Origin: Pirellulales bacterium
Lineage (GTDB): Bacteria; Planctomycetota; Planctomycetia; Pirellulales; JADZDJ01
Assembly: GCA_035656635.1 (NCBI GenBank)
Contig: DASRSD010000005.1
Location: 1 to 53,974, forward strand
Reading direction: 5' to 3'
Length of the DNA: 53,974 nucleotides
Positions 2,024 through 37,926 of this stretch are shown here, one piece after another. Made by a program: the position numbers and the translations under genes. The stretch's first letter is position 1. Every line of letters begins with the position of its first letter. The notes beneath the pieces were generated by a model that was not told the DNA's origin, did not search any database, and saw only the letters and a list, made by a program, of their open reading frames with translations.

Positions 2024-3032
2024 TGGTCAACTCCACCAGCCGCGTAAGCAAATGTTGTGCAGCGCCCGAATTAATCGCTTGGTGCGCCATTTGGACGCCC
2101 TCGGGCAATGAGCCTGCCTTGCCAGAGATCCATAATGCGGCGGCAGCATTGGCGGCTACAATCTCGCGCGCCGGACCAGTTTCTCCTGCTAGCAACCGTT
2201 GGATTAAATTTGCACTTTGCCCACTATCTTCTACGATCAACGGTTCGAGCGAAACTGCCGGAGGCAAGCCGAAATCGGCCGCAGTCCAGCGGAGTTCATT
2301 CAGTGTGCCGTCGTGGACGACCTCTGTAACATGGGTTTCGCCGGCCAGGGTCACTTCGCCCAATTCGCCGTCGCCGCTAACGACCACGGAATGTTGCGTC
2401 CCCAAACGGGCCAAAGCTTTCGCCATGGTTTGGCGCAACTCCGCCCGGCCAACACCGAGTAATTGAAACGGCGCACCGGCAGGGTTACATAAGGGTCCCA
2501 GCAAATTGAAGATGGTTGGCACACCCAAGCGGCGGCGAACATCCGCCACACGCTTCATCGTCGGATGCATCAGTGGTGCAAAACAAAAACAAATGCCCAA
2601 CTCGTCCAGGCAACGCTCAACGCAGGGCACATCGGCGGCAACGTTTACCCCCAAAGCAGCCAGCACGTCGGCGGAGCCAGTGCAGCTGGTTACCGCGCGA
2701 TTGCCGTGCTTTGCGACCGGCACGCCAGCAGCAGCCGTAACCAAGGCGGCCGTCGTGCTAATGTTGAACAATCGAGAGCCTACACCGCCGGTGCCACACG
2801 TATCGATCACAGTACGATGTCGAGTGCGGATCGGCAGCATGTGCTTGCGAAGCGAAAGGGCCGCGCCGGCAATTTCTTCCACGGTTTCGCCCTTGGCACG
2901 CAAGGCTGTTAGAAGCAGGGCGATTTGCTCTTCCGGCAATTGCCCCTCCATGACCGCGTCGAAAACAGCGGTTGTTTCTGGCTGAGCCAGGTTTTCTCCG
3001 GCCGCCAAACGACCGAGTGCGGCAGTAATCAT
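2004..3032 (-). CDS. trpD: Anthranilate phosphoribosyltransferase (divergent active site)
   Basis: TrpD transfers the phosphoribosyl group of PRPP to anthranilate in tryptophan synthesis. The 342-residue length and the family landmarks are normal: CGTGG, FNIST, KHGNR, TGSADVL and a [10 protein letters not shown] segment. Two conserved acidic positions look replaced. The usual GTGGD reads GTGGV, and the usual DGLDE stretch that holds the Mg-PRPP ligands reads DGELGE, so the first Asp of the DE pair aligns with Gly. The enzyme may therefore be altered or impaired; I infer this from family knowledge. No other trp gene is in the window. The next gene downstream, a copper ATPase, starts inside its 3' end. 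The ATG at 3032 gives the usual N-terminus. Confidence 0.9.
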
Positions 3033-3228
3033 ATGGTTGCGCTGCGTAGAAGGATGGGTCCAAAAATTCTATCGCCCCGCAGCAATTGGGGAATGGGGAG
3101 TTGAGAAAATCAATGCATTCCTCGCGAAAATATCAGACGTTCTTCGCTGCTGGAATATGAAAGCGGCTTGGGTTAGGATCGAGGCCACTTGCAGCACCGT
3201 TTGCACATGAATTGAATTGGAAGGTCCA

Positions 3229-4491
3229 ATGCTGATCTATCGCCCGATCATTGGTGTCGTCGCCCTGAGCGTCTGGGCTGCCAGCGTGGCGGCGGGTGCC
3301 CAAGAGTGGACGCGATTTCGAGGCCCAAACGGACAGGGACAAAGCGATTCGGCTGCGACCATCCCCATCACCTGGACCGAAAGCGACTACAACTGGAAGG
3401 CGCCATTACCGGGCGTTGGGCATTCGTCGCCGGTCATTTGGGGCGATCAGGTGTTTATCACCTGCGCTGAGCCAGACACCGCCGCACGGCACGTGCTGTG
3501 TTTGAATACCGCCACAGGCCAAAAATTGTGGCAGCGAGATTTTCCTGGAGCTAAATATCACGTCCACACGCAAAATAACTTTGCCGTCAGCACGCCCGCT
3601 TTGGATGCGCAGCGCATTTATTTGGCCTGGGCTTCCGCCGATAAGTTCACGCTGCAGGCGTTAACGCATGCAGGCGATTCCGTCTGGGAAATCGATTTGG
3701 GGCCATTTGTCAGCCAGCACGGTTTTGGCACATCGCCGATCGTGGTGGACGATGAGGTAATTATCACCGACGATCAAGAAGGCGATCAGCGGTTCCTCCT
3801 TGCCGTCGACTCAGCCACGGGACAAGAACGTTGGAAAATTCCCCGCAAGTATGCCGATAACCGACAGAACGCTTCCTATGCCACCCCTTGCATTTTGGAA
3901 ACAAAGGCTGGACGCGAATTGATCGTGTGCAGTTGGGCATACGGCATTACCAGCCACGATTTGAAAACCGGAGCCGTAAATTGGGAAGCGCCCGTGTTCA
4001 AACTGCGACCGGTGGGTTCCCCCGTCTTGGCTGACGGTTTGATTCTTGCCAACTGCGGCGAGGGGCAAGAAGGCAAAGGAAATAACATGGTCGTGGCCAT
4101 CAAGCCCGGGAGCAAAGAGGGTGCCCCATATGAATTGGCGTACAGCATCCCCAAATCGTCGGCTCCGTATGTGACCACCATTTGCACCGCAGGCGATTTG
4201 GCTTTCTTGTGGGGCGACGGCGGAATTGTCAGTTGCATTGATGTACCAACCGGCAAGATTCACTGGCGTCAACGAGTGGGGGGAATTTTTTATGGTTCGC
4301 CGGTGCGAGTGGGCGATCGCATTTATTGCATTTCGCTCGATGGCGACGTCGTGGTGCTCGCCGCCTCGTCGGAATATAAACTGCTGGCCCGCAACCCGCT
4401 GGGCGAAGGCAGCCAGGCAACGCCCGCCATTGCGGATGGCAAAATGTACCTGCGCACCCTGTCGCATCTGATTTCGATCGGCGGAAAATAA
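3229..4491 (+). CDS. Exported PQQ-like beta-propeller repeat protein
   Basis: The 420-residue protein begins with a signal peptide (about residues 1-22, ending AAGAQ) and then shows repeated blades with the typical TGxxxW element: TGQKLWQ, TGQERWK, TGAVNWE and TGKIHWR. This is the PQQ-binding-like WD propeller fold, very common in exported planctomycete proteins and usually without a bound quinone. No catalytic residues of a PQQ dehydrogenase are evident, so its function is unknown; a scaffold or binding role is an inference. I chose the ATG at 3229 rather than the in-frame TTG at 3217 because GGAAGG lies about six bases upstream of it. It stands alone, between the divergent trpD and an adenylating enzyme gene. 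Confidence 0.88.
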   Translation: MLIYRPIIGVVALSVWAASVAAGAQEWTRFRGPNGQGQSDSAATIPITWTESDYNWKAPLPGVGHSSPVIWGDQVFITCAEPDTAARHVLCLNTATGQKLWQRDFPGAKYHVHTQNNFAVSTPALDAQRIYLAWASADKFTLQALTHAGDSVWEIDLGPFVSQHGFGTSPIVVDDEVIITDDQEGDQRFLLAVDSATGQERWKIPRKYADNRQNASYATPCILETKAGRELIVCSWAYGITSHDLKTGAVNWEAPVFKLRPVGSPVLADGLILANCGEGQEGKGNNMVVAIKPGSKEGAPYELAYSIPKSSAPYVTTICTAGDLAFLWGDGGIVSCIDVPTGKIHWRQRVGGIFYGSPVRVGDRIYCISLDGDVVVLAASSEYKLLARNPLGEGSQATPAIADGKMYLRTLSHLISIGGK

Positions 4492-4600
4492 ATTATCTTA
4501 TTCGCCCGGTGCTGCGATGCCGAGAAAGCTGTATTTCTTAGATGTTTGGTCAGACCGAGTGCAACTACAAAAAAACGCTGCGCAGCATAGAATTTGAGTG

Positions 4601-5887
4601 ATGACACCCACTACCGCCGCTGAACGCCGCCGCTTGGAATCATTGCCGCGCGCAGAGTTGGAGCAATATCAACTGCGACGGTTGAACGCATTACTAAACC
4701 AGGCATTGCCGTCCAACCAGTTTTATGCGCAAAAATTGGCGCGGATGAAACAGCCCATCGAGTCGCTGGCAGAATTCGCGCAGTGGCCATTCACATTCAA
4801 AGAAGAGTTGATGGGTCCGGCAAGCGGGGGCGACACTGCGAACAATCACACGTGGCCGCGGGAACGGTATTCGCGCTTTCATCAAACTTCCGGCGCCAGC
4901 GGGCGACCGATGGTGGTGCTCGATATGCCGGAAGATTGGCAATGGGTGCTGGAATGTTGGCAATACGTGCTGGATGCGGCGGGCGTGGATTCCGGCGATC
5001 GAGTGCTGATGGCCTTTTCGTTTGGTCCGCACATCGGGTTCTGGGGCGCTTATGAAGCATTTTGCCAGCGGGGAGCGCTGGTCATTCCCACCGGCGGCAT
5101 GAACTCGCTGCAACGCTTGGAATTGGTCCGACACAACGAGCCCACCGTGGTGTGTTGTACCCCTAGCTATGCGCTGCATTTGGCTGAAGTGGCGGGACAG
5201 CACGATATTGATATTGCGCAATGCGGCGTGCGAATATTGGTTTTGGCAGGCGAGCCCGGTGGATCGGTGCCCGCCGTCCGCGGCAGATTGGAACAATTGT
5301 GGAATGCCCAGGTGCATGACCATTGCGGGGCAACGGAAGTAGGTCCCTGGGGCTTTGGAGAACCGCATGGTCAAGGGCTACATGTGATTGAGTCCGAATA
5401 TATTGCCGAGTTCTTATCCTTGGCGACCGGTGGACCGGCCGAGGATGGCGAGGAAGCGGAGTTGGTGATCACAAACTTGGGTCGGATTGGATGCCCGGTG
5501 TTGCGCTACCGCACGGGCGACGTCGTGCGCCCCACCTGGCTGCACTCGGAAGCCAATCGATTTGTGTTCCTCGCTGGCGGTGTGCTGGGCCGGAACGACG
5601 ACATGCTGGTGGTTCGCGGCGTCAATGTGTTTCCCAGCAGCATCGACCATATTTTGCGAAGCTTTCCGGAAGTGGTGGAGTACCGGGCCACGGTTTACAA
5701 AGTTTCGGAGATGGATCGCTTGCGGATCGAAATTGAAGATCGCCTGGAGCAGCCGGATCGAATTTTGCAGGAATTCAAACTACGGATTGGCCTGCGTGTA
5801 GAAGTGGAATCAGTTCCACTGGGTTCTTTGCCCCGATTTGAAGGCAAGGGAAAGCGATTTATTGATAACCGGGAACTGCCACGATGA
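4601..5887 (+). CDS. PaaK-like AMP-binding CoA ligase
   Basis: This 428-residue protein belongs to the phenylacetate-CoA ligase branch of adenylate-forming enzymes, which activate a carboxylic acid with ATP and pass it to CoA. The ATP-binding loop TSGASGRP is near residue 95, CGATEVGPWG near 243, and YRTGDVVR near 305. The small C-terminal domain has RGVNVFPSSI, the usual PaaK form. The substrate cannot be told from the sequence. The next gene overlaps it by ATGA (5884-5887), so the two are translationally coupled. The frame also allows GTG at 4598, directly before the ATG. Confidence 0.87.
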   Translation: MTPTTAAERRRLESLPRAELEQYQLRRLNALLNQALPSNQFYAQKLARMKQPIESLAEFAQWPFTFKEELMGPASGGDTANNHTWPRERYSRFHQTSGASGRPMVVLDMPEDWQWVLECWQYVLDAAGVDSGDRVLMAFSFGPHIGFWGAYEAFCQRGALVIPTGGMNSLQRLELVRHNEPTVVCCTPSYALHLAEVAGQHDIDIAQCGVRILVLAGEPGGSVPAVRGRLEQLWNAQVHDHCGATEVGPWGFGEPHGQGLHVIESEYIAEFLSLATGGPAEDGEEAELVITNLGRIGCPVLRYRTGDVVRPTWLHSEANRFVFLAGGVLGRNDDMLVVRGVNVFPSSIDHILRSFPEVVEYRATVYKVSEMDRLRIEIEDRLEQPDRILQEFKLRIGLRVEVESVPLGSLPRFEGKGKRFIDNRELPR

Positions 5888-9443: not shown

Positions 9444-10388
9444 ATGAATCGTACTTTGCATTGGCGATTTTTGCACTCGGCCCTGCCCGTACTAGGCATT
9501 GCCGTTTTGTTGTGCATCAGCGGCACCGTAACGTGCAGCTCCACTGTGCATGCTGAGACCGCCACGCCTCCTTCCTCCACGGCATCGGCCGCCGAGCTCA
9601 CTCCTCGTGATTTACACGTTTGGGGGCGTTTCGATCCGGGCACGTGGAAGCAGGTTCGCGTGATTACCGATGCTTTGAACAGCCGTGGCGAAGTGGTCGA
9701 CACCACCACCACAGAAATTAAAACCACGCTGCTCCGCGCCGATGCCAAACGTCTCACGTTGCGAATCGAGGCCATCGTGGAAGTTGGCGGCCGCCGGTTC
9801 GAAAGCCCGGCGCAAATTGTCGAATATGGCTACTACGGCGAGTCGCCTAACCAGCCGGCCGAACTCAAATCGCTGGGTTCGGAACCGCTCACGGTCGATG
9901 GCCGGCAAGTTTCCTGCCGCATTCAACAGCTTGTGGCCAACACCGGGCACGATAAGGAAATCACGCAGTTTTTCCTATCGGACGACGTGGAACCTTATGT
10001 GCTGAAGCGCGAAACGCGAATTTTTACTGCCGACGGCAAATCGCCGCAGGATCCGCAAACCACCGTCGAGGTGATCGCGCTGGATATGCCTTACAAAGTG
10101 CTCCACGAAATGAAATCGACCGCCTACGAACGTACCATTCAGCGCAGCGACCATGGCGCGAATGTTACGCTCGATGTCACTTCCGTCGACGTGCCCGGCG
10201 GCATTGTGGCTCGCACGTCGAAAGAATTCGACAGCGAAGGCCGGCTGGTCCGTCGCAGCACGTTGGAACTGGTCGACTATCGGGTGGTCGACAATGACGA
10301 CGACAACGCCGACAATTCCAGCGGGGACAAGAACAACCCCCAAAATCTCACTCGCCGGCAAGTCAAACGGGCCCGCAAGCATTCTTAG
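9444..10388 (+). CDS. Exported hypothetical protein (314 aa)
   Basis: The protein starts with a long signal peptide (about residues 1-38, ending VHAETA). The mature part is a mostly beta-looking domain with DLHVWGRFDPGTWKQV near its start, which resembles exported planctomycete proteins of unknown role. The tail is acidic (DNDDDNADN) and then basic (RRQVKRARKH). No catalytic motif is visible. The ATG at 9444 is chosen because the upstream in-frame extension from a TTG adds residues before the signal peptide. It is followed 33 bases later by a DUF1810 gene. Confidence 0.65.
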   Translation: MNRTLHWRFLHSALPVLGIAVLLCISGTVTCSSTVHAETATPPSSTASAAELTPRDLHVWGRFDPGTWKQVRVITDALNSRGEVVDTTTTEIKTTLLRADAKRLTLRIEAIVEVGGRRFESPAQIVEYGYYGESPNQPAELKSLGSEPLTVDGRQVSCRIQQLVANTGHDKEITQFFLSDDVEPYVLKRETRIFTADGKSPQDPQTTVEVIALDMPYKVLHEMKSTAYERTIQRSDHGANVTLDVTSVDVPGGIVARTSKEFDSEGRLVRRSTLELVDYRVVDNDDDNADNSSGDKNNPQNLTRRQVKRARKHS

Positions 10389-22880: not shown

Positions 22881-25466
22881 CTACGAACCTTCGCTTCCGG
22901 AGTCCGTTTCCTGAGAGGGCTGGCTGCCGATGTCTGTGCCGCCGACGGTGCCGACGAGCTGTGGCTCGCCTACCGTTCCAGTAAAAGTGAGATGTTTGAC
23001 TTTGCCTTCATCGTCTTTTTTCACATCGACAATGATGGTGTCTTTGCCCTGGAACTCACCCTTCAGCAATTCCTCGGACAGCGGGTCTTCGATCCGTTGT
23101 TCGATTTCACGGCGGAGCGGACGAGCGCCAAAGTCCAAATTGGATCCCTTGCGAATCACGTATTCCTTCGCGGCATCGGTCAGGATCAATTTCAATCCGC
23201 GCTCGGAAAGCCGGTGACGGACCTTGGACAGTTCAATATCGATCACGTGTTTCAAATCGTCCTTGGTCAAGTGCCGGAACACAATTAAGTCGTCCAAGCG
23301 GTTCAAGAATTCAGGACGAAAAACTTTTTCGATCCGCTCGGTGACGCGCTCCTTCATGCTCTCGTACGAACTGTCGCTGTCGGCCTTGCGGAAGCCGAAA
23401 TCGGATTCGTTCTTGATGGCTTCGGCGCCTGCGTTGGTGGTCATAATCAAAATCGTGTTGCGGAAATCAACGTGGCGTCCGAAGCTGTCGGTTAAACGTC
23501 CTTCCTCCATGACCTGCAACAGCATATTGAATACGTCCGGATGGGCCTTTTCGATTTCATCAAGCAGGACCACCGCATAAGGTCGCCGGCGGATTTTTTC
23601 GGTAAGCTGGCCTCCCTCTTCGTAACCGACATAGCCCGGCGGAGCGCCGATTAAGCGGCTGACGTTGTGCTTTTCCATGTACTCGCTCATGTCAATTTGC
23701 ACGAGGGCTTCCTCATCGCCGAACATGAACTCGGCCAGCGCCTTGGCGAGCAGGGTTTTACCAACCCCTGTAGGACCGGCAAAGATGAAGCAGCCGGTGG
23801 GCCGTTTGGGATCCTTCAGTCCACTGCGACTGCGGCGGACGGCCTTCGAAATGCTTTTGATCGCTTCGTCCTGACTAACGACGCGATTGTGCAAATCTTC
23901 CTCCATCTTCATCAGTCGCATGCTATCTTCAGTGGTCATGCGAGTAAGAGGAATGCCGGTCATTTTGGACACGACTTCCGCAATGACTTCTTCGTCAACC
24001 ACGCCGTCCGCTTCGCGGCTGCGTTCGCGCCAGTCGCGAGTAATCTGCTGCTTTTTCTTTTTCAGCTTGTCGGCGGAATCGCGAAGGGAAGCCGCCTTTT
24101 CAAAATCTTGATTGGCGACCGCATCTTCCTTTTCTTTGTTGAGTCGCTCGATTTCGTCGTCGATTTCTTTCAGGTCGGGGGGCTTGGTCATGGCTTTCAA
24201 ACGCACCCGCGCGCCGGCTTCATCGATCACGTCAATGGCCTTATCCGGCAAGCAGCGGCCCGTGATGTAACGGCTCGAAAGCTCCACGGCGGAGTCGATT
24301 GCATTATCGGTAATTTGAACGCGGTGATGCGTTTCGTACCGATCGCGCAAGCCTTTCAGAATTTCGATCGTTTCCGATTTGTTCGATGGCTCGATGACGA
24401 TTTCCTGAAACCGGCGGGCTAAGGCGCTATCCTTCTCGATGTATTTGCGGTATTCATCCAGCGTGGTCGCCCCAATGCATTGGATTTCGCCGCGAGCCAA
24501 GGCTGGCTTGAGCACATTGCTAGCGTCAATGGCGCCTTCCGCACCACCGGCGCCAACGAGCGTATGCAATTCGTCAATAAATAAGATCGTGTTTTTGGCC
24601 CGCCGAACTTCGTTCATCACGGCCTTAATGCGTTCCTCGAATTGCCCACGGTATTTCGTGCCGGCGACCATCATTGCCAAATCGAGGACTACGATTCGCT
24701 TGTCAGTCATGATTTCGGGCACGTTGCCATCGACAACGCGTTGGGCCAGCCCTTCCACAATGGCCGTTTTGCCGACGCCGGCCTCGCCTAAAAGCACCGG
24801 ATTGTTTTTCGTGCGGCGGCAAAGAATTTGAATCGCACGTTCAATTTCCCGTTCCCGACCGATGACAGGGTCTAACTTCGATTGGCGTGCCAGCTCGGTA
24901 AGATCGCGGCCGAAGCTATCGAGGGCAGGGGTTTTGGACTTTCCACTTTTTCCGGTCGGTTCCGAACCGCCGCCACCACCGCCACCGCTGCGCTCCATGC
25001 CGCCTCGTTCGCCTCCCTCGCTCTCCATGCCGTGGCCCAATAGGCTAAGCACCTCCTCGCGCACGTCTTCCAGTTTCAAGCCCAAGTTCATAAGCACCTG
25101 GGCGGCCACACCTTCTTGTTCTCGCAATAGACCGAGCAGAATATGTTCGGTGCCCACGTAGTTATGGTTTAGATTGCGAGCCTCCTCCATGGCGTACTCG
25201 ATGACCTTTTTCGCGCGCGGGGTTTGCGGCAATTTACCCATGGTGACCATATCGGGTCCGCTTTGAACCAGCTTTTCCACCTCCAAGCGGATTTTGCGCA
25301 GGTCAATGTCGAGATTTTTAAGGACATTCGCGGCTACCCCGCTACCTTCTTTAATCAAGCCCAGAAGGACATGCTCGGTGCCGATGTATTCATGGTTGAA
25401 CCGTTGAGCCTCTTGGTTCGCCAATTGCATGACTTTCCGAGCTCGATCAGTGAAGCGTTCGTACAT
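22881..25466 (-). CDS. clpC: ClpC-type AAA+ unfoldase
   Basis: The 861-residue Hsp100 unfoldase feeds substrates to the ClpP protease. The N-domain (1-150) holds two Clp-N repeats ([11 protein letters not shown] and [11 protein letters not shown]). The D1 ATPase has Walker A GEAGVGKT and D2 has GPTGVGKT. Between them lies the ClpB/ClpC middle segment with a UVR-type motif ([10 protein letters not shown]), typical of ClpC. An unusual Gly-rich linker ([14 protein letters not shown]) joins the N-domain to D1. The tail is acidic and Ser/Thr-rich. GAGG lies about nine bases before the ATG. Confidence 0.95.
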
Positions 25467-25620: not shown

Positions 25621-26142
25621 TTACCTCAAATCATCTAAAAGCTGCCGCTCACGTTGAATTTCGCCATGCCAAGTGTGCGACGCGTCCCTCCGCTCCAATT
25701 GGCGAAGGCACTCATAAGCCTCGGCTACTCGTCCGGTCCGACGCAGCAATCCTGCCCACATGATCTGTGCATTGGCATCGTTTTTATTGCGACCAATTAA
25801 CCGGGTAAGTAGGTGCTCGGCTTTGATCCAGTTCCCATGTAAGTATTCGCATTGGGCCTCACGAAACAAGTCTTCTACGGTTTTAGCGGCTTGCCCTGAG
25901 TCGAAACCCAGTAACTGCCGAAACGACAGAGCTATAGAAGCCATCCAGGCCACTATAAGCAAAAGCCATACCTCAAGCCGCTGCGCCGGTTCGACCCAAT
26001 CGGCCCACACGAAGGTAAAGGTCAGGGCTAAACTCAATAACCAAGCGAACCCGCATGCTACCATCAGCCCCGACCATGCGCCGGAACACCATAGCTGTGT
26101 AAAGCCAGGCCAAAGCGGTGTGAACCACCGTTTCCAGCGCAT
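25621..26142 (-). CDS. Membrane protein with TPR-like tail (173 aa)
   Basis: The N-terminal third has two hydrophobic segments (about residues 22-45 and 58-75). The C-terminal half looks like two tetratricopeptide-type helical pairs (EDLFREAQCEYLHGNWIKAE, LLRRTGRVAEAYECLRQLER). It probably sits in the inner membrane with the helices in the cytoplasm and binds another protein. No family name can be given. AAAAGGG precedes the ATG at 26142 at a good distance, so I reject the longer frame to 26319. Confidence 0.6.
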   Translation of the reverse strand: MRWKRWFTPLWPGFTQLWCSGAWSGLMVACGFAWLLSLALTFTFVWADWVEPAQRLEVWLLLIVAWMASIALSFRQLLGFDSGQAAKTVEDLFREAQCEYLHGNWIKAEHLLTRLIGRNKNDANAQIMWAGLLRRTGRVAEAYECLRQLERRDASHTWHGEIQRERQLLDDLR

Positions 26143-26645
26143 TTGCTGACCCTTTTCCGATGAGCAGGAAAGACCGGTTAAGCACAAAATGATGCCGGGG
26201 AATTCTAACCCCGGATTCCGGCTGCAGCAAGGGAAAATAGGGCCCCCCCGCTGGCGCGTCGTTAGCGGCGTTGCTGTTGAACTTCGGGTAGGGGCGAACC
26301 GTGGCCAAATATGTGGCATTCGCGCATCTTCGCTGCAAGCTCTCAGGACGGCTACCGGTAGTCATGAATGTTCAGGCCGCACGATTAACTTGCAGTACAA
26401 CCACACCGGTGGCGCTGATTTCTGTGCCGGCAGATTACAAATTTCAAGGCTGTTAAAAAAAATGCACAGAATTGGGCCACTCAATTGTTACAATCGTTGG
26501 AAGCAAACACGAATTGTTGCTAATTCGCTACGGGAATTTGGGAATCCAATGAGTTATTAAAGTAGCCCTCTGCATCCCAGAAGGCTTTCACCGCATTACC
26601 CGGTCAGTTGACCATCCGTTGAAGAGCACATTGGAGGAATACAGC
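26143..26645. other. Divergent gene-free region
   Basis: It lies between the minus-strand TPR-like gene and the plus-strand phage-domain genes and should hold both promoters. A short palindrome ATTGT-T-ACAAT at 26484-26494 could be an operator, but it is small enough to be chance. Open frames here look non-coding. Confidence 0.4.
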
Positions 26646-26921
26646 ATGTCGACAGCCATTCAAACTGTTCCTATCACCGCTGAGGACACGGAATACTCGA
26701 TTGATTTGGGGACGATCAGCAATCTTACGATTGGGTGTCGCGAGCAGCTCGGAAATCTCCGCATCGCCTTGCAAAGCGGGTACGTTGCGGAGCGTAGCGA
26801 GCCCTTCCTCGAGGTGAAATACAGCAGTAAACAATCGCTCAGCTTCAGTCCGGCGATGGACATCATTTTATATATCGCCAGCGACACGACAAACGTCGTG
26901 GCGGAAATCGTAACGAAATAG
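26646..26921 (+). CDS. Small phage-virion-like domain protein A (91 aa)
   Basis: GGAGGA lies eight bases before the ATG, so the start is firm. The 91 residues form one beta-looking domain: TEYSIDLGTISNLTIGCRE, then NLRIALQSGYVAERSEPF, ending DIILYIASDTTNVVAEIVTK. The same pattern makes up the C-terminal half of the protein at 27553. It resembles short domains in tailed-phage structural genes of the form TEYSxxLPxxTKxFxIQxR ... YFQSxxAGxxVEI. There is no signal peptide. The function is unknown; a small multimeric structural or decoration protein is my inference. Confidence 0.6.
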   Translation: MSTAIQTVPITAEDTEYSIDLGTISNLTIGCREQLGNLRIALQSGYVAERSEPFLEVKYSSKQSLSFSPAMDIILYIASDTTNVVAEIVTK

Positions 26922-26986
26922 CTCAATCGAATTTAGACCAATAGGCCAAATAACACTCACACCGCGAAACAGAAAGGTACCAACTC

Positions 26987-27232
26987 ATGAAGCTCCATGC
27001 TTTCACTTTGCAAACCGATCAGACCGAAATCACCGTGCCTCCTTGTCGATATCTTCAAATCCAATCGTATTTTGGCGACAACTCGTTGGAAATAAATGGC
27101 GATGCAGTTTCATTGCCTCAGAATACGTCGATCGTCGTGAATACGAGCGAAGGCAATACACTTGAAGCCACCAGCTTGTTATGGATCAATGAAGGCGAAG
27201 GGGCATCGGTCAATGTGATTTGGGGCGTTTGA
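26987..27232 (+). CDS. Small beta-rich protein of the same cluster (81 aa)
   Basis: The protein is short, has no signal peptide and looks all-beta. AAAGG lies about nine bases before the ATG. It ends LLWINEGEGASVNVIWGV, a hydrophobic terminal strand like those of phage tail or decoration proteins. It does not clearly share the repeated domain of its neighbours. It starts 65 bases after the previous gene and belongs to the same cluster by position. Its function is not known. Confidence 0.5.
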   Translation: MKLHAFTLQTDQTEITVPPCRYLQIQSYFGDNSLEINGDAVSLPQNTSIVVNTSEGNTLEATSLLWINEGEGASVNVIWGV

Positions 27233-27552
27233 GCGCGGCGTGCCCAGTGTCGGGCCAGGGTCAGTTTTCAAGAATTGCACGATTCTCCGGCGCTTCGATT
27301 CATTGCCACACTGCTCATCGCGAAAGTCGCTGGCGAAGCCATCGAATTTAGCATTTGCTGACACTGCTAGTGGCCGCTGTGACCGCAAGCCGGTCCGTAC
27401 AACGGCTGAGCACACCGGCTCCCTAATTGCCACCGACGCGACATTCATTTAGCTGCAAATCAATACCCCTGGTATTGAACGGAACATTGGACATCTTGGC
27501 AGAACGAATTCCCGACGGGGATTCTGCCGAAACATTAACTCCCCTGCGAACA
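27233..27552. other. Gene-free stretch within the phage-domain cluster
   Basis: About 320 bases with no convincing gene. A plus-strand frame at 27240-27452 has a composition unlike the neighbours, and the frame upstream of 27553 stays open to 27427, so the next gene may begin earlier than annotated. Confidence 0.4.
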
Positions 27553-28125
27553 ATGACAACTCCATTTGACGATGACATTTTTAATTTGGCTGACGGTGTG
27601 GAAGAAATCTATATCGATAGCTCGAGCCCTTATCAAGCAATCATCCGAAGAATTACCCGCGCGGAATCCGTCGGATCGGGACTGCCGGATACGGCAATTG
27701 TTTTCATGGTTGAATCCGATGCTGTGCCCACGATCAGAGCGACCATTTTACGCAGCAATGGCGAAACTTACACGATCGTGAAAGCCGAGCTGCGCTCGCA
27801 TGAAACTCGGTGGGTTGTCTTTACCGGGAGTATTTCTCCGCCTGTGCAGAGCCAACCCGAGTTTCATACAATCAACATCGGTGCGGCCAACACGGAGTAT
27901 AGCTTGGCGCTAACCGCCATTAACAGCTTAAAAATTAGCGCTCGCGATGTCACAAAATCATTTCGCCTGGCTTTTGAATCGGGCAAAGTTGCCGACAGCA
28001 TGGAGCCATTTCACACAATGCATTCACATCAAACTCTGGCATACAACTTCAAACCGGCGTTAGATTTCACTTTATATGTTGCGTCTCCCTCGGGAGGGGT
28101 AGCGTTGGAGCTCATAACCCAATAA
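27553..28125 (+). CDS. Two-domain phage-structural-like protein (190 aa)
   Basis: The N-terminal half begins MTTPFDDDIFNLADGVEE and continues with a small beta domain (ATILRSNGETYTIVKAEL). Its start and length resemble phage head-tail joining proteins of the lambda FII type, although the similarity is by eye only. The C-terminal half (about residues 105-190) repeats the domain of the 91-residue protein at 26646: NTEYSLALTAINSLKI, RLAFESGKVADSMEPF, DFTLYVAS, ELITQ. So this is a fusion of two virion-like modules. No other phage gene such as a terminase, portal or capsid is present. The start is uncertain because no clear ribosome binding site precedes 27553. Confidence 0.55.
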   Translation: MTTPFDDDIFNLADGVEEIYIDSSSPYQAIIRRITRAESVGSGLPDTAIVFMVESDAVPTIRATILRSNGETYTIVKAELRSHETRWVVFTGSISPPVQSQPEFHTINIGAANTEYSLALTAINSLKISARDVTKSFRLAFESGKVADSMEPFHTMHSHQTLAYNFKPALDFTLYVASPSGGVALELITQ

Positions 28126-28238: not shown

Positions 28239-29345
28239 ATGCCTTGCAACGACGAAAATCATTCTGTGGAACTGCCGCTGACCTCAGCCGATAAGCTGGG
28301 CGTTCTGCGCATTATTGATGCGGAGGTTAATCGAGCTGCCGAAGGATTGCGCGTGGTCGAAGATTACGTTCGATTTGTACTGGATGATCAACATTTGACC
28401 GGGCTAGCAAAACGACTACGGCACGATTTAACTACCGTACTGGGGGGTCTAGCATCGACCGATCGTTTGGCGTCACGCGAAGCGCAGATCGATGTGGGCA
28501 TGGCCCTGGAGGTTCCGCAAGAATCGCACCGATCCAACATTTCCAATGTTGTAGCTGCCAGCTTCAAACGAGTCCAGCAAGCATTGCGATGTCTGGAAGA
28601 ATACGTGAAATTGCTAAATCCCGTCGCGGGTGCAGAAATTGAGTCGCTACGATTTCGCTCATACACATTGGAACGGGCAGTGAGCCTTACTGCGGATTCG
28701 CTTCGCCGACTATCAAAAACACAGTTATATGTGCTAATCGATGGTTGCACCGACGAACGAGCATTTGCGAGTTTAGTTGAGTTGCTAGTTGCTGCTGGAG
28801 TCCATGCACTGCAGCTGCGTGACAAACGACTTTGCGACCGGGACTTGTTGATGCGCGCTCGTCTCCTGCGCAGCATCACTAAGTCCACAGAGACGTTATT
28901 TATCATGAATGATCGCGCGGATCTGGCAGTTCTTGCTGGAGCCGATGGCGTGCACCTGGGACAGGAAGAACTGGGGGTAAAAGACGCTCGGGCCATCATG
29001 GGGCCACGTGCGTTCGTGGGCATCTCCACACACAATATTGAGCAAGCCCGGCGGGCCGTACTGGACGGAGCCAATTACATTGGCGCGGGTCCAACGTTTC
29101 CGTCCGCCACTAAATCGTTCGAAGCGTTTGCCGGGGAGAATTTATTGCGCAGCGTGGCGGCGGAGATTTCGTTGCCCGCCTTTGCCATTGGGGGCATCAA
29201 TTTGCAGAATTTTCCACAAATAGAAGCCACAGGAATCCGGCGCGTTGCGGTTAGTATCGCAGTGGTTAAAGCGAACGATCCGGCGGCCGAAGTGCGCCGG
29301 TTTTTAGAACGGTTAACTTCCAATGAGTCGCAGATTTTTCGATAG
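28239..29345 (+). CDS. thiE: ThiD2-ThiE fusion, thiamine-phosphate synthase
   Basis: The 368-residue protein has two parts. Residues of about 20-150 form a ThiD2-type domain (RAAEGLRVVEDYVRFVLDD, LRHDL, NISNVVAASFKRVQQALR). That domain has been linked to phosphorylation of hydroxymethylpyrimidine phosphate. Residues from about 163 form the ThiE barrel, which joins the pyrimidine and thiazole phosphates to thiamine phosphate: QLRDK, MNDRADLA, GVHLGQEEL, GISTHN, GPTFPSATK and AIGGI. Such fusions occur in cyanobacteria and planctomycetes. I saw no TPP riboswitch upstream. The gene converges with the tlpA-like gene, six bases apart. Confidence 0.92.
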   Translation: MPCNDENHSVELPLTSADKLGVLRIIDAEVNRAAEGLRVVEDYVRFVLDDQHLTGLAKRLRHDLTTVLGGLASTDRLASREAQIDVGMALEVPQESHRSNISNVVAASFKRVQQALRCLEEYVKLLNPVAGAEIESLRFRSYTLERAVSLTADSLRRLSKTQLYVLIDGCTDERAFASLVELLVAAGVHALQLRDKRLCDRDLLMRARLLRSITKSTETLFIMNDRADLAVLAGADGVHLGQEELGVKDARAIMGPRAFVGISTHNIEQARRAVLDGANYIGAGPTFPSATKSFEAFAGENLLRSVAAEISLPAFAIGGINLQNFPQIEATGIRRVAVSIAVVKANDPAAEVRRFLERLTSNESQIFR

Positions 29346-30737: not shown

Positions 30738-30836
30738 CCATTGCAACCTCGGCTGCTCAGGGAAGATAATGAGCTAGTGGCCATGTGAAGAGAGGCAGCG
30801 ATCTAAAACAGTATTGAAACTTGGTGGCAGGTGAAT

Positions 30837-31907
30837 ATGCGCGAGCGGCCGCCCAGAACGCGCCAAGTGCATGTAGCGTTTGAGCAGCTGGAACTGCGCG
30901 CCATGTTGGCGGCCGGATCCCCAATGGTCGCGCCCCAAGTTCTTGCAGCCGCTCCAACTGCTTTGCACGCAGCGGTAAGTTCTGCAAATGGGGCAGCGAC
31001 CATCCATGCACAGGCAGCAAAATTAACCACCCCCGCAGTTGCAAAAGCGACGGCTTCCTCCCGTTATGAGCGAGGGGACCTAAGTGGCAATGGCCAAGTT
31101 GATGCAGCTGACATTGTCGTCTTTCTCAGAGCATTGATCGACTTGAAGGCGTACCAAACTGCGAACCAGCTCAGCGATTCACAGCTATTGACCGTTGGGG
31201 ATATTAATCAGGATGGCCACGTTAACAATCTCGATTTGCAATCCTTGATCGATTTAATTAAATCCGAGGGGACGCCGCCACCGCCCGCTCATAAGGCATT
31301 CGTACCGATTGTCCCGACCGGATCCAATTCACCTTCGAATGTTTCACTTGTCAATTCGTCTACGGGATCAGGAGCGCCCGTGGTATCGCAGTTGGTTGTA
31401 AGTAGCACGGCGGGCGCTTTCACGCCATTGAAATCGTCGGAAGCACTGTTGGCAGGTGGGGGAGGCGATGCACAGCCTGGTGCGCAGACGGTGTCGGACA
31501 ACGGTCCTCCCATGCCGACCCGCACGAAGACGAGCGATATCGCTCTTATCGCCTTTGCTCCGCGTCAATCCACCGGAGGCGACGATATTGTGGAAGGCGT
31601 GCTTATGAAATTGGCTGACGTCGAGGAGCCGCAATTGTTAGCAATTGAATATGGCGACGAAGTTGTAAGACGAGAAGTAACGGTAAACAAAAAAGTGGCG
31701 CCGCAGCAATCTGTTGAGGCACCGGTGATTGAGACAGTAATCAAGGCACTCACGCCTGAGGTCGGAAATCCCACTGAATTTTCCTGGATAAACTATATGT
31801 GGTTGGCAATACCAGCGGGCGCAGGCATGGCTGCCGCCGCTTGGTGGATTTATCGGCAGCGCCTGCAAGATAATAAGGGCACATTATTTCGTCGCTTGGG
31901 GCTTTAG
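30837..31907 (+). CDS. Exported dockerin-like protein with LEPR-XLL-like signal and C-terminal membrane helix
   Basis: The N-terminus reads FEQLELRAMLAAG, close to the LEPR-XLL export signal of planctomycete surface proteins. Residues of about 80-145 form a dockerin type I pair: GDLSGNGQVDAADI and GDINQDGHVNNLDL, both with calcium-binding Asp/Asn spacing. A Ser/Pro/Gly-rich region follows. A C-terminal hydrophobic helix (about 320-338, AIPAGAGMAAAAWW) precedes RQRLQ and suggests a membrane anchor. Dockerins bind cohesins; no cohesin domain is seen in the window. The ATG at 30837 follows AGGTG; the GTG at 30831 is in frame. Confidence 0.78.
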   Translation: MRERPPRTRQVHVAFEQLELRAMLAAGSPMVAPQVLAAAPTALHAAVSSANGAATIHAQAAKLTTPAVAKATASSRYERGDLSGNGQVDAADIVVFLRALIDLKAYQTANQLSDSQLLTVGDINQDGHVNNLDLQSLIDLIKSEGTPPPPAHKAFVPIVPTGSNSPSNVSLVNSSTGSGAPVVSQLVVSSTAGAFTPLKSSEALLAGGGGDAQPGAQTVSDNGPPMPTRTKTSDIALIAFAPRQSTGGDDIVEGVLMKLADVEEPQLLAIEYGDEVVRREVTVNKKVAPQQSVEAPVIETVIKALTPEVGNPTEFSWINYMWLAIPAGAGMAAAAWWIYRQRLQDNKGTLFRRLGL

Positions 31908-32042
31908 GCTGGGGCTGAGCTGTGTGGCAACCCGCCTGTATTTCGACACCAATGCACGTGATGGAATCCCGGGCAATTCAGCTTTTGATACGACACTTTG
32001 ATATTCTTGCACTAGAACGCAAAATCGTTTGGAGAAATCATC

Positions 32043-33773
32043 ATGTTGCCGACACCTGATGAAACCACGCAACTCGACGTTCGTTTGCCTAGCGACGTTA
32101 AACACCCTTCGGGCTCGAAGAACGAAGCAATGCACAGCCCGACGGTGTCACAACATCGTGATGGAACCGATCGGCAATCACCCGTTATTTTCACAGAGAA
32201 ACCGCCTCTTAAGATTGGCCGTTATGAATGTCGTCGGCAAATTGGCTTGGGCACATTTGGTGCTGTGTATTTGTGCTTTGATCCGCAATTGAAACGGAAT
32301 GTCGCTATTAAACTTCGTCATGAGCACACCTCATCGTTGGGTAATGGCGCGACGGATTTATTGCACGAAGCGCAAAGTGTGGCCCGCTTGCGGCATCCTG
32401 GAATTGTAGCGGTGCTTGATACGGGCTGCACCGAAGATGGTCGTGGCTACATCGTTTATGAATATGTAGCAGGAAACGATCTGAAGCGGCGCATCGAAAT
32501 GGCTGATTTTACGCGCGAAGACGCGATTCGCTGGATTTCTGAAACGGCCGATGCTTTGCACTACGCGCATTTGCAAGGGTTGGTGCATCGGGATATTAAA
32601 CCGGCTAATATTTTGATCGATCATTCCGGCCATACACGTTTGGCCGATTTCGGCTTGGCCAAGATCGACGATCGCTTTTTCACAGATGATACCGGCCGGG
32701 TGTTGGGAACCGTGGCTTATATGAGTCCGGAGCAAGCCGACGGAAAATCGCATTGGGCAACGTCGCAATCGGACATTTATTCGCTAGGTGTAGTCTTATA
32801 CGAATTGCTTTGCGGCAGGCGCCCGTTTAATGCGGAAAGTTCGATCGATTTGTTGGAGCAAGTAAAGTACCGTGCGGCGCCACCACCGCGCGCCATTCAC
32901 GACGATATCCCCCAGCCGCTGGAGCAAATTTGTTTACGGGCCATGGCCAAAGAGCCGGCTGGTCGGTTCACCACAGCAGCCGACATGGCCGCCGAGTTGC
33001 GTGCCGTGCTGGCAGGTCCGCCGCTCCGCAATCGCGGATGGCAATTTTTCATCGTAGCGCTGGCTGGGATGGTGTTCGCAGTGGCTGCCGTAATGTGGGC
33101 ATGGCGTGATCGGCTGTTCGATAAAGCCGATAAAGCAGTGAATTTGCCGACTACGCTTAGTCCTACAATACAAACGAATATATCATCCTATAACCCGCCA
33201 ACCTTGGAAATATTTTTGCAGCGGCGGTTGCAAGTAAACGACTTCGTCAAGCTCCATCAGGCTGACCTGCCGATTCATCCAGGCGATAAATTACAGTTGC
33301 ACGCGAAAATTGATCGGCCGGGCTATATTTATTTGTATTGGTACGATGCTGAAGGCAAACCTAAGCGTTTGTGGCCCGAACCAGGCGCGCCTTTGGAACA
33401 GCAACAACCGGAGAGCGAAGTTTGGAGTCCGGCCGAGGCCAAAAGCAATGGAGGAACAGCAAAATGGTGGCCCGTGGAAGGAACCTCCGGCGCTCAATTG
33501 GCTTTGGTGACGGTTGCTGATAAGCCGCTGTCGGCTGTCGAACTCCTGCAGTTTGAAAAACAGACCTTTGCCTTGGCGGACGAACTGTCACGTCCACGGC
33601 AAATCGTTGAGTTTGTGCATCCTGATTTATCGCCGACTTCATTAGCACGAGGTTTAGGGCAAAACCCGATAGAATCTCCGAAACGGGTCGTACGTGAATT
33701 AGAGCCAGAATTAAATTCTCGGTTCAAAGCTTATCGCGGTTGGTTATTTTTCCAGGAAGCTATTCGTGATTAG
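32043..33773 (+). CDS. Transmembrane Ser/Thr protein kinase with DUF4384-like domain
   Basis: A 576-residue Hanks-type kinase. The kinase domain spans about 59-325: GLGTFGAVY glycine loop, Lys 90 in VAIK, catalytic Asp 184 in HRDIKPANI, DFG at 202-204, and YMSPEQADG. All are intact, so it should be active. A membrane helix follows at about 335-357. The C-terminal part (about 390-505, VKLHQADLPIHPGDKLQLH, GYIYLYWYDAEG, WPEPG) matches DUF4384, a beta domain of unknown ligand that would lie outside the cytoplasm. Its last codons overlap the next gene by 8 bases. The paired TPR-CHAT protein is a likely partner. Confidence 0.92.
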   Translation: MLPTPDETTQLDVRLPSDVKHPSGSKNEAMHSPTVSQHRDGTDRQSPVIFTEKPPLKIGRYECRRQIGLGTFGAVYLCFDPQLKRNVAIKLRHEHTSSLGNGATDLLHEAQSVARLRHPGIVAVLDTGCTEDGRGYIVYEYVAGNDLKRRIEMADFTREDAIRWISETADALHYAHLQGLVHRDIKPANILIDHSGHTRLADFGLAKIDDRFFTDDTGRVLGTVAYMSPEQADGKSHWATSQSDIYSLGVVLYELLCGRRPFNAESSIDLLEQVKYRAAPPPRAIHDDIPQPLEQICLRAMAKEPAGRFTTAADMAAELRAVLAGPPLRNRGWQFFIVALAGMVFAVAAVMWAWRDRLFDKADKAVNLPTTLSPTIQTNISSYNPPTLEIFLQRRLQVNDFVKLHQADLPIHPGDKLQLHAKIDRPGYIYLYWYDAEGKPKRLWPEPGAPLEQQQPESEVWSPAEAKSNGGTAKWWPVEGTSGAQLALVTVADKPLSAVELLQFEKQTFALADELSRPRQIVEFVHPDLSPTSLARGLGQNPIESPKRVVRELEPELNSRFKAYRGWLFFQEAIRD

Positions 33774-36700
33774 GCCGCTGGAACACCAAATGCGCGAACA
33801 CTGGCCGTTGGCAGCGTATGCCGTCTGGGCATTGTTTCTGGGCGGACCATGTCTAACCCACGCTATGGCGGAAGACCAAGGGCCGCCTGTTGACGTGCGC
33901 TTGGTTAACGATTTGTATCGCGCCGGCCAGTACCGTCAAGCGGTGGAAGTGCTAGACCAATTGCTTGAACCCCGCAAGGCCGCCAAACTTTCTGTGCCAG
34001 CATCAATTTCCTGCTTGAATTTGGCGGTAGAAGTCAATCAGGCATCCGGACGCTTCGACGCGGCCTTGCGATGTGCTCTTCAGCAACAACAACTTCAGGA
34101 CCATCAATTCGACGGCGTGCCTGCTAAGCAAAACACTTATCGACAGACGATGGCGCTAACAATCGCCGATTTGCAGATGTCATTGGATGAATTCAAAGAA
34201 GCTGAGAAAACACTGCGCGGAGCTTTGGCAATTCCAGCAGGGGCGCGGTTGGATGATCCATTATGGGAAGCCAATGCGCAAGTTCAATTGGCCCGAGCGG
34301 TTGCCGCTCCAGCGCTTGCCGATCGACAAGAGGTTGCTCAGCAGCAGGCTGCAAAACAGTGGACCGTGGCAGAGAACTGCGCCCGACACATCGTGGATCA
34401 TTATCTTTCTGGCCACATGACAGTGCAGCAACTAGTTCAGGCCGCAAAATTACAAGAGGAATGCTTATTAGCACTAGGCCGTGCCGACGAGGCGGCTGGG
34501 CTTATAGATCGATTATTGCAGAGCGGTTCGCCTGAGCTGGATGACTTAGCTCGGATGGATTTGAGCAATGAACTGGCGCGCTGTCGACATGCAGAGGGAA
34601 ATTTTGCGGCGGAGCGCACGGTTCTTGAACAGGCGCTCTCGTGGCAACAAAACGTAGATCACAACGAACCGACCGTGGCTCAGGCCGCGCTGTTAAATCG
34701 TTTGGCCGTAGTGTTGCAAACACTTGGTGCAGATACGTTGGCCGAGGATAGATGGAAATCCGCCGCGAATTTGTATCGTCAGCTTCTTGATCCTGCCGCC
34801 AAAGGGACTCTTCATACTGCAACCAAACCTGAAGTTAAATTCCTCGATTTACAATGTCTCCAGGGACTTCAGGAAATTGATATGCGGTTAGGAAATTGGC
34901 CCGACGGAGTGAGCATATCGCAGGATTTGCTACAGCGATTGGAACCGCGATTACGAGCAGACGATCCTGCTTTCATACGTGCCAAAACGATGCTGGGAGC
35001 TTTTTTAGCCAAAAACGAGGATTGGAATGCAGCTCGGCCTATTTTAGAAGAAGCGGCCGCGTATTGGCGCACTCGTGTGCCGCTGGCCCCGGCAGACTTG
35101 GCCGGCACGTTGGTCAATTTAGCGGAAATCGCACGTCAAACGGGTAGTTTCACGCAAGCTCAATCGCTTTTGGAAGAGGCATTATTGTCTTATCGAGCGG
35201 TGTTGTCTTCCCACGATGTCAAACTGGCGGATGCGCTTTCGAATTTGGCGGCAGTTCAAAATGCTCGTGGCCAATTTCACGAGGCGCTAACGAATTATCT
35301 GGAAGTGGAGTCCATTTGTCGCGATCCGGCGAATATCGACGATCGCCGATCAGAGGAGTTGCATAGCACGGCACTGCTCAATTTGTCGATGCTTTACAAG
35401 TCGCAGCGACAATTTGACTCCGCCGCCGCCACCTGTGAGCAAGCCTTGGCGCTAGTGCAAAAACGACATCCATCGGATACGGATATCGCGCTGCTGCCAT
35501 TTCACATTGCGCTAGCGTCATTATATTTGGCCGAGGATATTTCACCACTAGACGAATCGATGGTTTCAGTATCATCTGAGACGAATGCCAACTTTCAAAG
35601 CATGTCTCAGAATCGTGGGTTGAACGCTGCACTCCAGCGAGCGGATTTTCATATCCAGTCCGCGCTTAGTCTTTGCACACAACATGGATTATTGCAAAAA
35701 CCGACCGGAGCAAACCTGTTGCATTTGACCGCCACATTGCAATATCGTCGCGGCGAGCTAAAGGCTGCCAAAGAATCATGGCACTCGGCGCTGCAAATTG
35801 CCCAGCTCAATGGGCAAACCGCCATCGCGTTTCGGTGTTTGAGTTATTTGAGTCAATTAGCAGCAAAAGAGAGTAATTTTGATGAAGCGGAAACTCTTTC
35901 GCGCAGTGCTGTTGAATTGCAAGAAGTAATTCAAGCATATCCTGCAATGCATTACATGGCTTTGGTGAACCGCGCTCAAATACTCCGCAAGCTGGGACGC
36001 AAAGAGGACGCGCTGAATTGCTTGCACGAGGCAGTGCGCGTAATTGAATCGCCGCGAGCCGAAACCACCGGCGGTGAAGCACAACGAGCTGTTTATTTTG
36101 CCCAGTTCGCAGCAGCGTTTGATTTATTGGTTGATTGGAGCGTGGAAGAGAATCATTGGGATGATGCTCTGAGCTATGCGGAAGCGGGCCGCAACCGTAC
36201 TTTTCTCGACCAGGTGCGAGCTGCTGGAATCGATTTGAAGGCATCGTTGCGGAACACGCCACAAGAGCATTTGATAGACGACGAACAAACAATTCTGTCG
36301 CAATATCATGCCTTGCAGGCTTCGGCGATCGAGTGGCTTGTTTCCAATGGCCCATCGGATGCAGTAGCGAATTCGGCAACCGGTGCGTCCGTCAATGAAA
36401 CTAATACCACCAGGAAGAATTCTAGCGGCAAAATTGCGGACTTGTCAGCTGAACTAGCAGGTCGTTTGGCTGATTTGCGTCGTCAGTATGCGGATATCCA
36501 AACTGCCATTCGCGACGCCAGTCCATTTTATCGCGAGTTACTATTAGGGAATCGTGAGCTGCAAGCTTGGCCCGTCGTAAAATCGCATGTGTTGTCTTCC
36601 GACAGTGTGATACTGCTTTATTATCTGGGTCAAACCGGGGGGCATTTGTTTTTAATCGATGGAAATGTGGCCTCACGTAATTCTGCAGCCGTTGATACAT

Positions 36701-37926
36701 CTTCCGATGCGGGCGGCGATTCCAATAGGAATGCAACGTTTAGCAGCAGTCAGGAAGTGACGCACTATCCCCTGGTAGTGTCGGCTGAGCAATCGTCACG
36801 GCTGGGAATTCCAGCAGGTCCATTATCTCGCCAGGCGGCGGCACAGTTAGTGTTCCGTTTCGTGGCAACGCTTTGCGAACCGGAACATGCTCGCAATTCT
36901 AGTCGTGAGCTAGGCCAAAAGGCCGTGACTAGCGCCAAGTATGCAATCGGCCCAAGTGAAGAATTGATGATTACGGACATCTTTGTTCCGCCGGCCCTGC
37001 GTGAAGAACTTCGCCGGCGAAGCCCGCGCTATATTGCTCTGGTTCCGGATGGAGCATTGCATCAACTACCGATGGAAGCACTGCGTGTATCTATCGATCC
37101 GCCGCGCTATTTGCTCGATGAATTGCCGCCCATCGCTTATGCGCCGTCGGCGATGATTTTAGCGGCGTTGGGGCAGCGTAAATCGGTAGAGAGCGTAAAG
37201 GATTTTTCCTTACTCACCGTGGGTAACCCGCGCTATCCGGAAATCGATCCGGCGATAAGTCGATCTTCCAGTGATGTGGCATTGGCCGATTACATCGCGG
37301 CAGGCGGCACGCTGTCGCCACTTCCTGGCACGTCAAGCGAATGCCGCAAGGTTGCTGCCTCCCTGCGCTCCGCTGGTCTGAAAGATGTAATCACATTGGA
37401 AGACCTGAACGCTTCAGAACGAAATGTCCGCACACATTTGGCGGGCCGGCAATTCGTGCACTTGGCTGCGCATGGCCTAGTCGATCAACAGTATCAGAAT
37501 TTATTTGGTGCCTTGGCTTTAACGCAGCCAGACAATTTCCAAAATGTCACTACTGAAAATGACGGTTTTCTTTCGTTGTTCGAAATCCACAATCTGCCAC
37601 TGGACAGCTGCGAATTGGTTGTGCTCAGCGCGTGCCAGACGAATATTGGGCCGGATCGGCCATTAGAGGCCGGTTCGACGATGGCGCGGGCATTTTTGGC
37701 GGCCGGTGCGCGGCGGGTTGTTTGCAGTCAGTGGGATGTGGACGATGAATCGACTTCGGAACTGATCGGTTCTTTTGCAGCCGCCTTGGGCGAATCGCTC
37801 CGAGCTGGCCAAACGCCCAATTACGCAGTGGCGTTGGCAGAGGCAAAAAAATATGTCCGTGCACAGTCAAAATGGTCGTCGCCTTATTTTTGGGCGCCAT
37901 TTGTATTAATGGGTCCGGCAAAATAG
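33766..37926 (+). CDS. Exported TPR-CHAT (caspase-like) protein, 1386 aa
   Basis: The GTG at 33766 is preceded by AGGAAG six bases upstream, inside the end of the kinase gene, so the two are translationally coupled. A signal-like hydrophobic segment lies at about residues 14-34, ending in AMAED. Many tetratricopeptide repeats fill about 40-820. The C-terminal CHAT domain (about 1120-1386) carries the caspase-type dyad His 1236 in HLAAHG and Cys 1290 in LSACQT, both present, and ends with SPYFWAPFVLMG. CHAT proteins are clan CD cysteine proteases, some of which take part in defence and cell death. Export of a CHAT protein is unusual. The substrate is unknown. Confidence 0.9.
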   Translation: MIRPLEHQMREHWPLAAYAVWALFLGGPCLTHAMAEDQGPPVDVRLVNDLYRAGQYRQAVEVLDQLLEPRKAAKLSVPASISCLNLAVEVNQASGRFDAALRCALQQQQLQDHQFDGVPAKQNTYRQTMALTIADLQMSLDEFKEAEKTLRGALAIPAGARLDDPLWEANAQVQLARAVAAPALADRQEVAQQQAAKQWTVAENCARHIVDHYLSGHMTVQQLVQAAKLQEECLLALGRADEAAGLIDRLLQSGSPELDDLARMDLSNELARCRHAEGNFAAERTVLEQALSWQQNVDHNEPTVAQAALLNRLAVVLQTLGADTLAEDRWKSAANLYRQLLDPAAKGTLHTATKPEVKFLDLQCLQGLQEIDMRLGNWPDGVSISQDLLQRLEPRLRADDPAFIRAKTMLGAFLAKNEDWNAARPILEEAAAYWRTRVPLAPADLAGTLVNLAEIARQTGSFTQAQSLLEEALLSYRAVLSSHDVKLADALSNLAAVQNARGQFHEALTNYLEVESICRDPANIDDRRSEELHSTALLNLSMLYKSQRQFDSAAATCEQALALVQKRHPSDTDIALLPFHIALASLYLAEDISPLDESMVSVSSETNANFQSMSQNRGLNAALQRADFHIQSALSLCTQHGLLQKPTGANLLHLTATLQYRRGELKAAKESWHSALQIAQLNGQTAIAFRCLSYLSQLAAKESNFDEAETLSRSAVELQEVIQAYPAMHYMALVNRAQILRKLGRKEDALNCLHEAVRVIESPRAETTGGEAQRAVYFAQFAAAFDLLVDWSVEENHWDDALSYAEAGRNRTFLDQVRAAGIDLKASLRNTPQEHLIDDEQTILSQYHALQASAIEWLVSNGPSDAVANSATGASVNETNTTRKNSSGKIADLSAELAGRLADLRRQYADIQTAIRDASPFYRELLLGNRELQAWPVVKSHVLSSDSVILLYYLGQTGGHLFLIDGNVASRNSAAVDTSSDAGGDSNRNATFSSSQEVTHYPLVVSAEQSSRLGIPAGPLSRQAAAQLVFRFVATLCEPEHARNSSRELGQKAVTSAKYAIGPSEELMITDIFVPPALREELRRRSPRYIALVPDGALHQLPMEALRVSIDPPRYLLDELPPIAYAPSAMILAALGQRKSVESVKDFSLLTVGNPRYPEIDPAISRSSSDVALADYIAAGGTLSPLPGTSSECRKVAASLRSAGLKDVITLEDLNASERNVRTHLAGRQFVHLAAHGLVDQQYQNLFGALALTQPDNFQNVTTENDGFLSLFEIHNLPLDSCELVVLSACQTNIGPDRPLEAGSTMARAFLAAGARRVVCSQWDVDDESTSELIGSFAAALGESLRAGQTPNYAVALAEAKKYVRAQSKWSSPYFWAPFVLMGPAK

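Follow-up and report, generated by a model that had tools for sequence, protein, structure and literature searches.

Gene transfer agents (GTAs) are known from few groups only. RcGTA, BaGTA and VSH-1 unite phage-derived head and packaging genes with vertical inheritance, and their genes are spread over several loci, some of which hold one or two genes (PMC11841831). Putative GTAs have been placed in the capsid family PF05065 (PMC8346489), and the extent of GTA distribution has been posed as a question in a review (PMC11841831). We found no report of a planctomycete GTA in the literature that we searched, which was not a full survey; a prophage of Zavarzinella has a TerL close to RcGTA-like TerLs (PMC7947584). 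Phage-type capsid proteins are likewise kept by hosts in encapsulins and other virus-derived compartments (PMC8346489), and for the necks of such particles the described proteins to compare with are lambda FII (PF05354) and SPP1 gp16 (PF05521). Here, we describe a Pirellulales bacterium in which the gene of a neck protein, P3, lies among host genes, apart from intact genes for the rest of a phage-type head, a separation that suggests a previously unreported GTA-like system. We consider it likely that P3 is the neck of a phage-derived, vertically inherited and probably tail-less GTA-like particle whose genes are distributed over at least three loci.

The window, by which we mean the whole stretch of 53,974 nucleotides that was analysed, contains at 26646-28125 three ORFs on one strand between the clpC side and a thiE-type gene, so that the row of three short genes given in the preliminary description is confirmed. 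P1 (26646..26921, +) encodes 91 aa and has its ortholog in the sister species at 10000-10272(-) of locus L009; P2 (26987..27232, +) encodes a fast-evolving protein of 81 aa; and P3 (27553..28125, +) encodes 190 aa, with an ortholog at L009 8819-9388(-). For P3, the mechanical ORF list starts at TTG 27427, and we prefer ATG 27553 because both the sister species and the alignment with neck proteins support it. The flanks had been called ordinary host genes, which is right for clpC (22881..25466, −; in the ORF list, 95% identical to and syntenic with L009 11725-14316) and for the thiamine phosphate synthase gene of thiE type (28239..29345, +; in the ORF list and syntenic in the sister, its identity taken over from that description), but passed over a gene for a TPR-repeat membrane protein (25621..26319, −) that has Pfam TPR matches, is syntenic in the sister genome and probably starts near 26142. 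Upstream of the operon, a 59-bp non-coding block with a promoter-like sequence (..GAATTGGGCCACnCAAnTGTTACAATCGTTG..; 26455..26513, +) is kept near-identical between the two species. The block was not found upstream of the capsid and terminase loci discussed below, and a search for a regulatory motif common to all three loci found none. Further downstream, at 30831-37926, three adjoining genes encode a dockerin-containing protein, a Ser/Thr kinase and a large protein of the TPR-CHAT type.

The N-terminal domain of P3 (residues 1-95, 27553..27837) had been likened by eye to a phage head-tail joining protein, and sequence profiles bear this out. Residues 5-88 match Pfam PF05354 (Phage_attach, the lambda FII family) with an E value of 0.0029 and 18.6 bits, under the curated cut-off of 26 bits, and the P3 of the sister species has no Pfam match. 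Since the score lies under the cut-off, we class P3 not as a member of PF05354 but as a relative of a neck family found beside capsid genes in other Pirellulales. A profile match in another genome of the order, which at E 0.0056 is by itself at chance level for the size of the search, pointed to a protein of 114 aa encoded directly 3' of the gene for a phage capsid protein (PF25209, E 6e-17); this protein matches Phage_attach independently, as P3 does. An HMM built from 132 such capsid-adjacent proteins, with the present genus excluded, matched 134 of 18,845 ORFs, namely its own 132 members and the two P3s (E 1e-8 and 1.5e-5) and nothing else, and its alignment spans the N-terminal domain of P3 from the first methionine at 27553. 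Profile-profile comparison with hhalign agrees (probability 93.6-95.6%, E 1e-8 to 2e-7): among 20 families of the capsid module described below, the domain matches the neck family only (95.6%, E 1.3e-8), the other 19 scoring under 1.5%. The structural model of this domain is of low confidence (pLDDT under 50), too weak to judge whether it has the beta-barrel fold of FII and gp16. These comparisons support the view that the N-terminal half of P3 is a phage head-tail joining (neck) protein kept outside any phage.

The C-terminal domain of P3 (residues 99-190, 27847..28122) has a different relative, P1, which is a stand-alone copy of it. P1 matches residues ~103-189 of P3 at 37% identity with an E value of 4e-13, and the global alignment of P1 with the C-terminal domain scores 17.6 SD above shuffled sequences, so that the duplication noticed earlier by direct comparison is real. 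P2 has no sequence relation to P1 or P3 in pairwise comparison. The C-terminal half of P3 is modelled as a jelly roll (pLDDT about 77) and P2 as a jelly roll or double-stranded beta-helix (pLDDT 81); judging from the model of its P3 counterpart, P1 would be a jelly roll as well. Structure searches with the C-terminal domain of P3 and with P2 show that this fold occurs in virion and cellular proteins alike. The matches returned by Foldseek and VIA are ordinary viral or cellular jelly rolls, and we do not argue a virion origin from them; small proteins of Pseudomonas phage tf, which came up as candidates from fold matches, are alike at the fold level only. The Ena subunits of endospore appendages, together with other jelly rolls, share the overall fold of the C-terminal domain with a Z of about 7, which is chance level for so common a fold, and have no sequence similarity to it. 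When compared by hhalign with the 20 module families, P1 and P2 match none, and neither does the C-terminal half of P3. Going by these models, P1 and P2 appear to resemble virion proteins in fold only, and, as they lack a sequence match to the module families, their assignment to the module is based on adjacency and fold. The earlier suggestion of virion parts kept outside a phage is thus supported for the N-terminal half of P3 but not for the predicted jelly rolls of P1, P2 and the rest of P3.

The genome of the window (G000) was compared with one other of its genus, G001, in which P1 and P3 occupy the same place between clpC and thiE. The two P1 proteins are 87% identical (dN 0.09) and the two P3 proteins 75% identical (dN 0.15), in both cases at saturated dS, with no stops and no sign of relaxed selection, and both are better conserved than the flanking thiE-type gene (65%) and TPR gene (66%). 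Purifying selection acts on both P1 and P3. P2 has a possible counterpart at L009 10382-10633(-), with 20% identity and an alignment 5.3 SD above shuffles, which precedes P1 where P2 in the window follows it. Between P1 and P3, the sister has two additional small ORFs (L009:9404-9960), a basic one of about 40 aa and one of 88 aa, with no recognised counterpart in the window; beyond thiE (L009:4743-6931) it has a DNA methyltransferase gene and what is probably a restriction gene, both absent from that place in the window. Another early suggestion was that the three genes are what is left of a prophage, which would then have lain between clpC and thiE, and a neck domain of phage type without further phage genes next to it is what such a remnant would leave. 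We regard this as very unlikely: the purifying selection on P1 and P3 and their unchanged place in the sister species speak against decay, as do their conservation above that of neighbouring host genes and the intact, vertically inherited capsid module with which they would be partnered.

Outside the genus, direct searches for P1-P3 found no homologs in phage records (tblastn), plasmids, IMG/VR or GTDB contigs, and none beyond the match at E 0.0056 in sets of 296 and 396 genomes of the order and 392 of the phylum; weak matches in two genomes (G162 and G058) fall in unrelated or overlapping ORFs and were treated as chance matches.

The capsid family that the neck search led to, PF25209, has members in 164 of the 296 genomes examined for this order and by inspection falls into two classes, one of high-scoring ORFs of 600-900 aa that are prophage-like and often present several times per genome, the other of lower-scoring ORFs that measure about 390 aa and mostly occur singly in a genome. 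The high-scoring loci, among them one in the sister genome (G001:C120:52-954), have the look of ordinary prophages, with several copies in some genomes. Capsid genes of the lower-scoring class are embedded in a cluster that recurs from genome to genome, the module. Its gene order begins with a ParB-like protein, an ATPase, the small terminase, TerL (PF17289), the portal (PF05136) and a small protein, continues with a protease, a cement protein (PF09956), the capsid protein, optional genes for LamG and beta-sandwich proteins, a protein of 70 aa and the neck, and in some families ends with a tail completion protein (PF11367), a tail tube and other genes for the tail. Among its named carriers are Bythopirellula polymerisocia, Botrimarina colliarenosi, Aeoliella straminimaris, Lacipirellula limnantheis and Planctomycetales bacterium 10988. 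At E <=1e-5, the portal profile finds matches in 112 of 196 genomes and the TerL profile in 130 of 196, the latter count including weak matches that resemble prophage terminases. Each of the 132 neck genes shares the strand of the capsid gene, and 131 of them are downstream of it, at a median of 957 bp. The neck family matches both of the Pfam families to which lambda FII and SPP1 gp16 belong (Phage_HCP in 24 of 43 proteins, Phage_attach in 10 of 43), and SPP1 gp16 itself in the PDB.

Several features recur beside or near this module. An ATPase with a fused GNAT acetyltransferase domain (PF00005 and PF00583) is encoded directly upstream of the terminase genes (for example, L250:13075-14271 and L248:10905-12098), and its family is found in 63 of the searched loci. 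A regulator of the XRE type, which may control the module, adjoins the capsid gene in 29 loci, such as L069:3981-4751(-), L070:1525-2088(+), L071:9483-10079(+) and L076:904-1398(+). In family f16 (L253-L261) the capsid has diverged strongly, and genome G096 has two copies of it. In distant families, similar proteins of 270-300 aa (L099:1410-2312, L158:19254-20060) and a protease-like protein are encoded near the module and may belong to it.

In the genus of the window, terminase, portal, protease and capsid genes are intact, on a contig other than that of P1-P3. The first 5 kb or so of contig C48 of G000 hold the genes for the small protein (about 1.0-1.3 kb), the protease (1430-2452) and the capsid protein (2464-3681), the 70-aa gene (within 3717-4061) and an XRE regulator (3981-4751, −). 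At 30-36 kb follow the ParB-like protein, the ATPase, TerL (32741-34192; E 1e-241) and the portal (34316-35695; E 3e-227), and then the host gene upp. Both gene groups are also present in G001, on contigs C221 and C201, where an ORF for the small terminase was read at L250 12505-12954. Between the two species, dN is 0.056 for the capsid, 0.088 for TerL and 0.089 for the portal, at a dS of about 1.5. Capsid and portal genes, which the preliminary description proposed to look for within 100 kb, thus exist in this genome, as do terminase genes, but on another contig. Neither PF05065 (capsid) nor PF04860 (portal) occurs in the three nearest genomes; they are the wrong families to search for, as the module uses PF25209 and PF05136.

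What this genus lacks at its capsid loci is the neck gene, with none beside the capsid gene in G000 or G001 and none besides P3 in the contigs of the genus that were examined; a cement gene between protease and capsid was not found either. Five other loci with at least 5 kb of sequence downstream, among them the loci of Bythopirellula polymerisocia and Lacipirellula limnantheis, also have no neck gene near the capsid gene, so its displacement or loss extends beyond this genus. That portal and terminase are kept with P3 as the one neck gene in sight bears on a different account of the operon, according to which only the N-terminal domain of P3 derives from a virion and was reused for a cellular role, while P1 and P2, perhaps along with the C-terminal half of P3, have nothing to do with a particle. 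The missing matches to module families and the abundance of jelly rolls among cellular proteins would agree with it, but the domain of P1 is fused to the neck domain within P3 and the genes are adjacent in both species, and we judge it improbable.

A head without a recognised cement gene, and the lack of tail genes beside the module in many genomes, could also be understood if the capsid formed an empty or protein-loaded compartment in the manner of encapsulins, its vertex plugged by P3 and its packaging genes serving other purposes or surviving as relics. To our knowledge, encapsulins come without terminase, portal, protease or neck genes, whereas the module keeps all of these under constraint, and the capsid gene of this genus has terminase and portal genes on its own contig. 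TerL retains its Walker A motif and the conserved nuclease region, and the constraint on TerL and on the portal comes close to that on the capsid. As these features fit DNA packaging, we disfavour the compartment and consider it quite unlikely.

Whether the module belongs to hosts or to phages was approached through its phylogeny and its tail genes. In a tree of 39 capsid proteins, 12 changes account for 13 host-family labels, which is the minimum (mean of shuffled labels 26.7) and agrees with the prediction of vertical inheritance. An ORF of tape-measure size (465-848 aa) lies between the tail tube gene and the next tail gene, g288, in six of 12 viral contigs, whereas the 21 chromosomal loci, which stand for about 17 distinct contigs, have no ORF >300 aa there. 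These viral relatives, one of them a 51.6 kb contig in IMG/VR with a tape-measure gene (L227), and the genuine prophage-type capsid loci in the same genomes speak for an active or satellite prophage lineage that diverges together with its hosts and has P1-P3 as late genes. Such a lineage is nevertheless an unlikely source, given that there is as a rule one capsid copy of this kind per genome in a tree congruent with host families, that the genes are scattered among host genes and that the chromosomal copies have no tape measure. In Botrimarina colliarenosi, moreover, the stretch from ParB to neck, about 11 kb long, contains module-type genes only, with host-type ORFs outside it. IMG/VR also holds many short contigs (L168-L247) with a capsid gene up to 79% identical to that of the chromosomal module, some of which may be fragments of host chromosomes labelled as virus. 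With capsid, portal and terminase under purifying selection and a gene tree that follows the hosts, both as in GTAs, a neck domain outside any phage and a vertically inherited module make a domesticated particle the best supported of the options first raised; nothing points to a component of an injection device.

The architecture of the neck protein offers an indication of what kind of particle this would be. Most module necks consist of two domains, Phage_attach followed by Phage_HCP (as in SPP1 gp16), whereas P3 has the first domain only, aligned with that of the neck family, followed by the jelly roll that it has in common with P1. Where a locus extends at least 4 kb past the neck gene, tail genes come after 42 of the 53 necks with two domains and after none of the 24 with one domain, counts in which loci are related and the same contig is sometimes included twice, so that a Fisher p-value is inflated. 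From this association and the single neck domain of P3, we infer that the particle of this genus is probably tail-less. It could instead be incomplete or tailed, the cement gene being missing from the capsid locus and tails having been surveyed near the module only.

Taken together, these observations would fit a GTA-like head in which protease and capsid protein make the shell, the terminase loads it with DNA through the portal and P3 seals the portal from below. In this genus the neck gene would have left the capsid locus to lie with P1 and P2 between clpC and thiE, and the jelly roll of P3 would have replaced the second, gp16-like domain. P1 could then add more copies of that jelly roll and P2 another one, so that the vertex of a head without a tail would be capped or decorated by jelly rolls. 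Assembly of the particle, packaging and transfer of host DNA and the roles of P1 and P2 are our reading of the genes. P3 differs from lambda FII and SPP1 gp16 in its score under the Pfam cut-off, in having a jelly roll where gp16-like necks have their second domain and in the position of its gene, apart from that of the capsid. The module in turn differs from described GTAs in its capsid (PF25209 and not PF05065), in its lambda-type portal (PF05136), in chromosomal tail-gene clusters that lack a gene of tape-measure size, many clusters having no tail genes at all, and in its host phylum, Planctomycetota. A broader proposal, to which we give slightly less than an even chance, is that Pirellulales carry an undescribed, vertically inherited GTA lineage that in this genus is tail-less, is split over at least three loci and has had the tail-joining domain of its neck swapped for a duplicated capping or targeting jelly roll.

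A packaging module that tracks host phylogeny across many families of Pirellulales would add a phylum to those with GTAs, and it may account for many of the IMG/VR fragments of this kind. It would point to a route by which Planctomycetes exchange genes, one open to testing, and the swap of a neck domain would be a natural experiment in the working of phage heads without tails.
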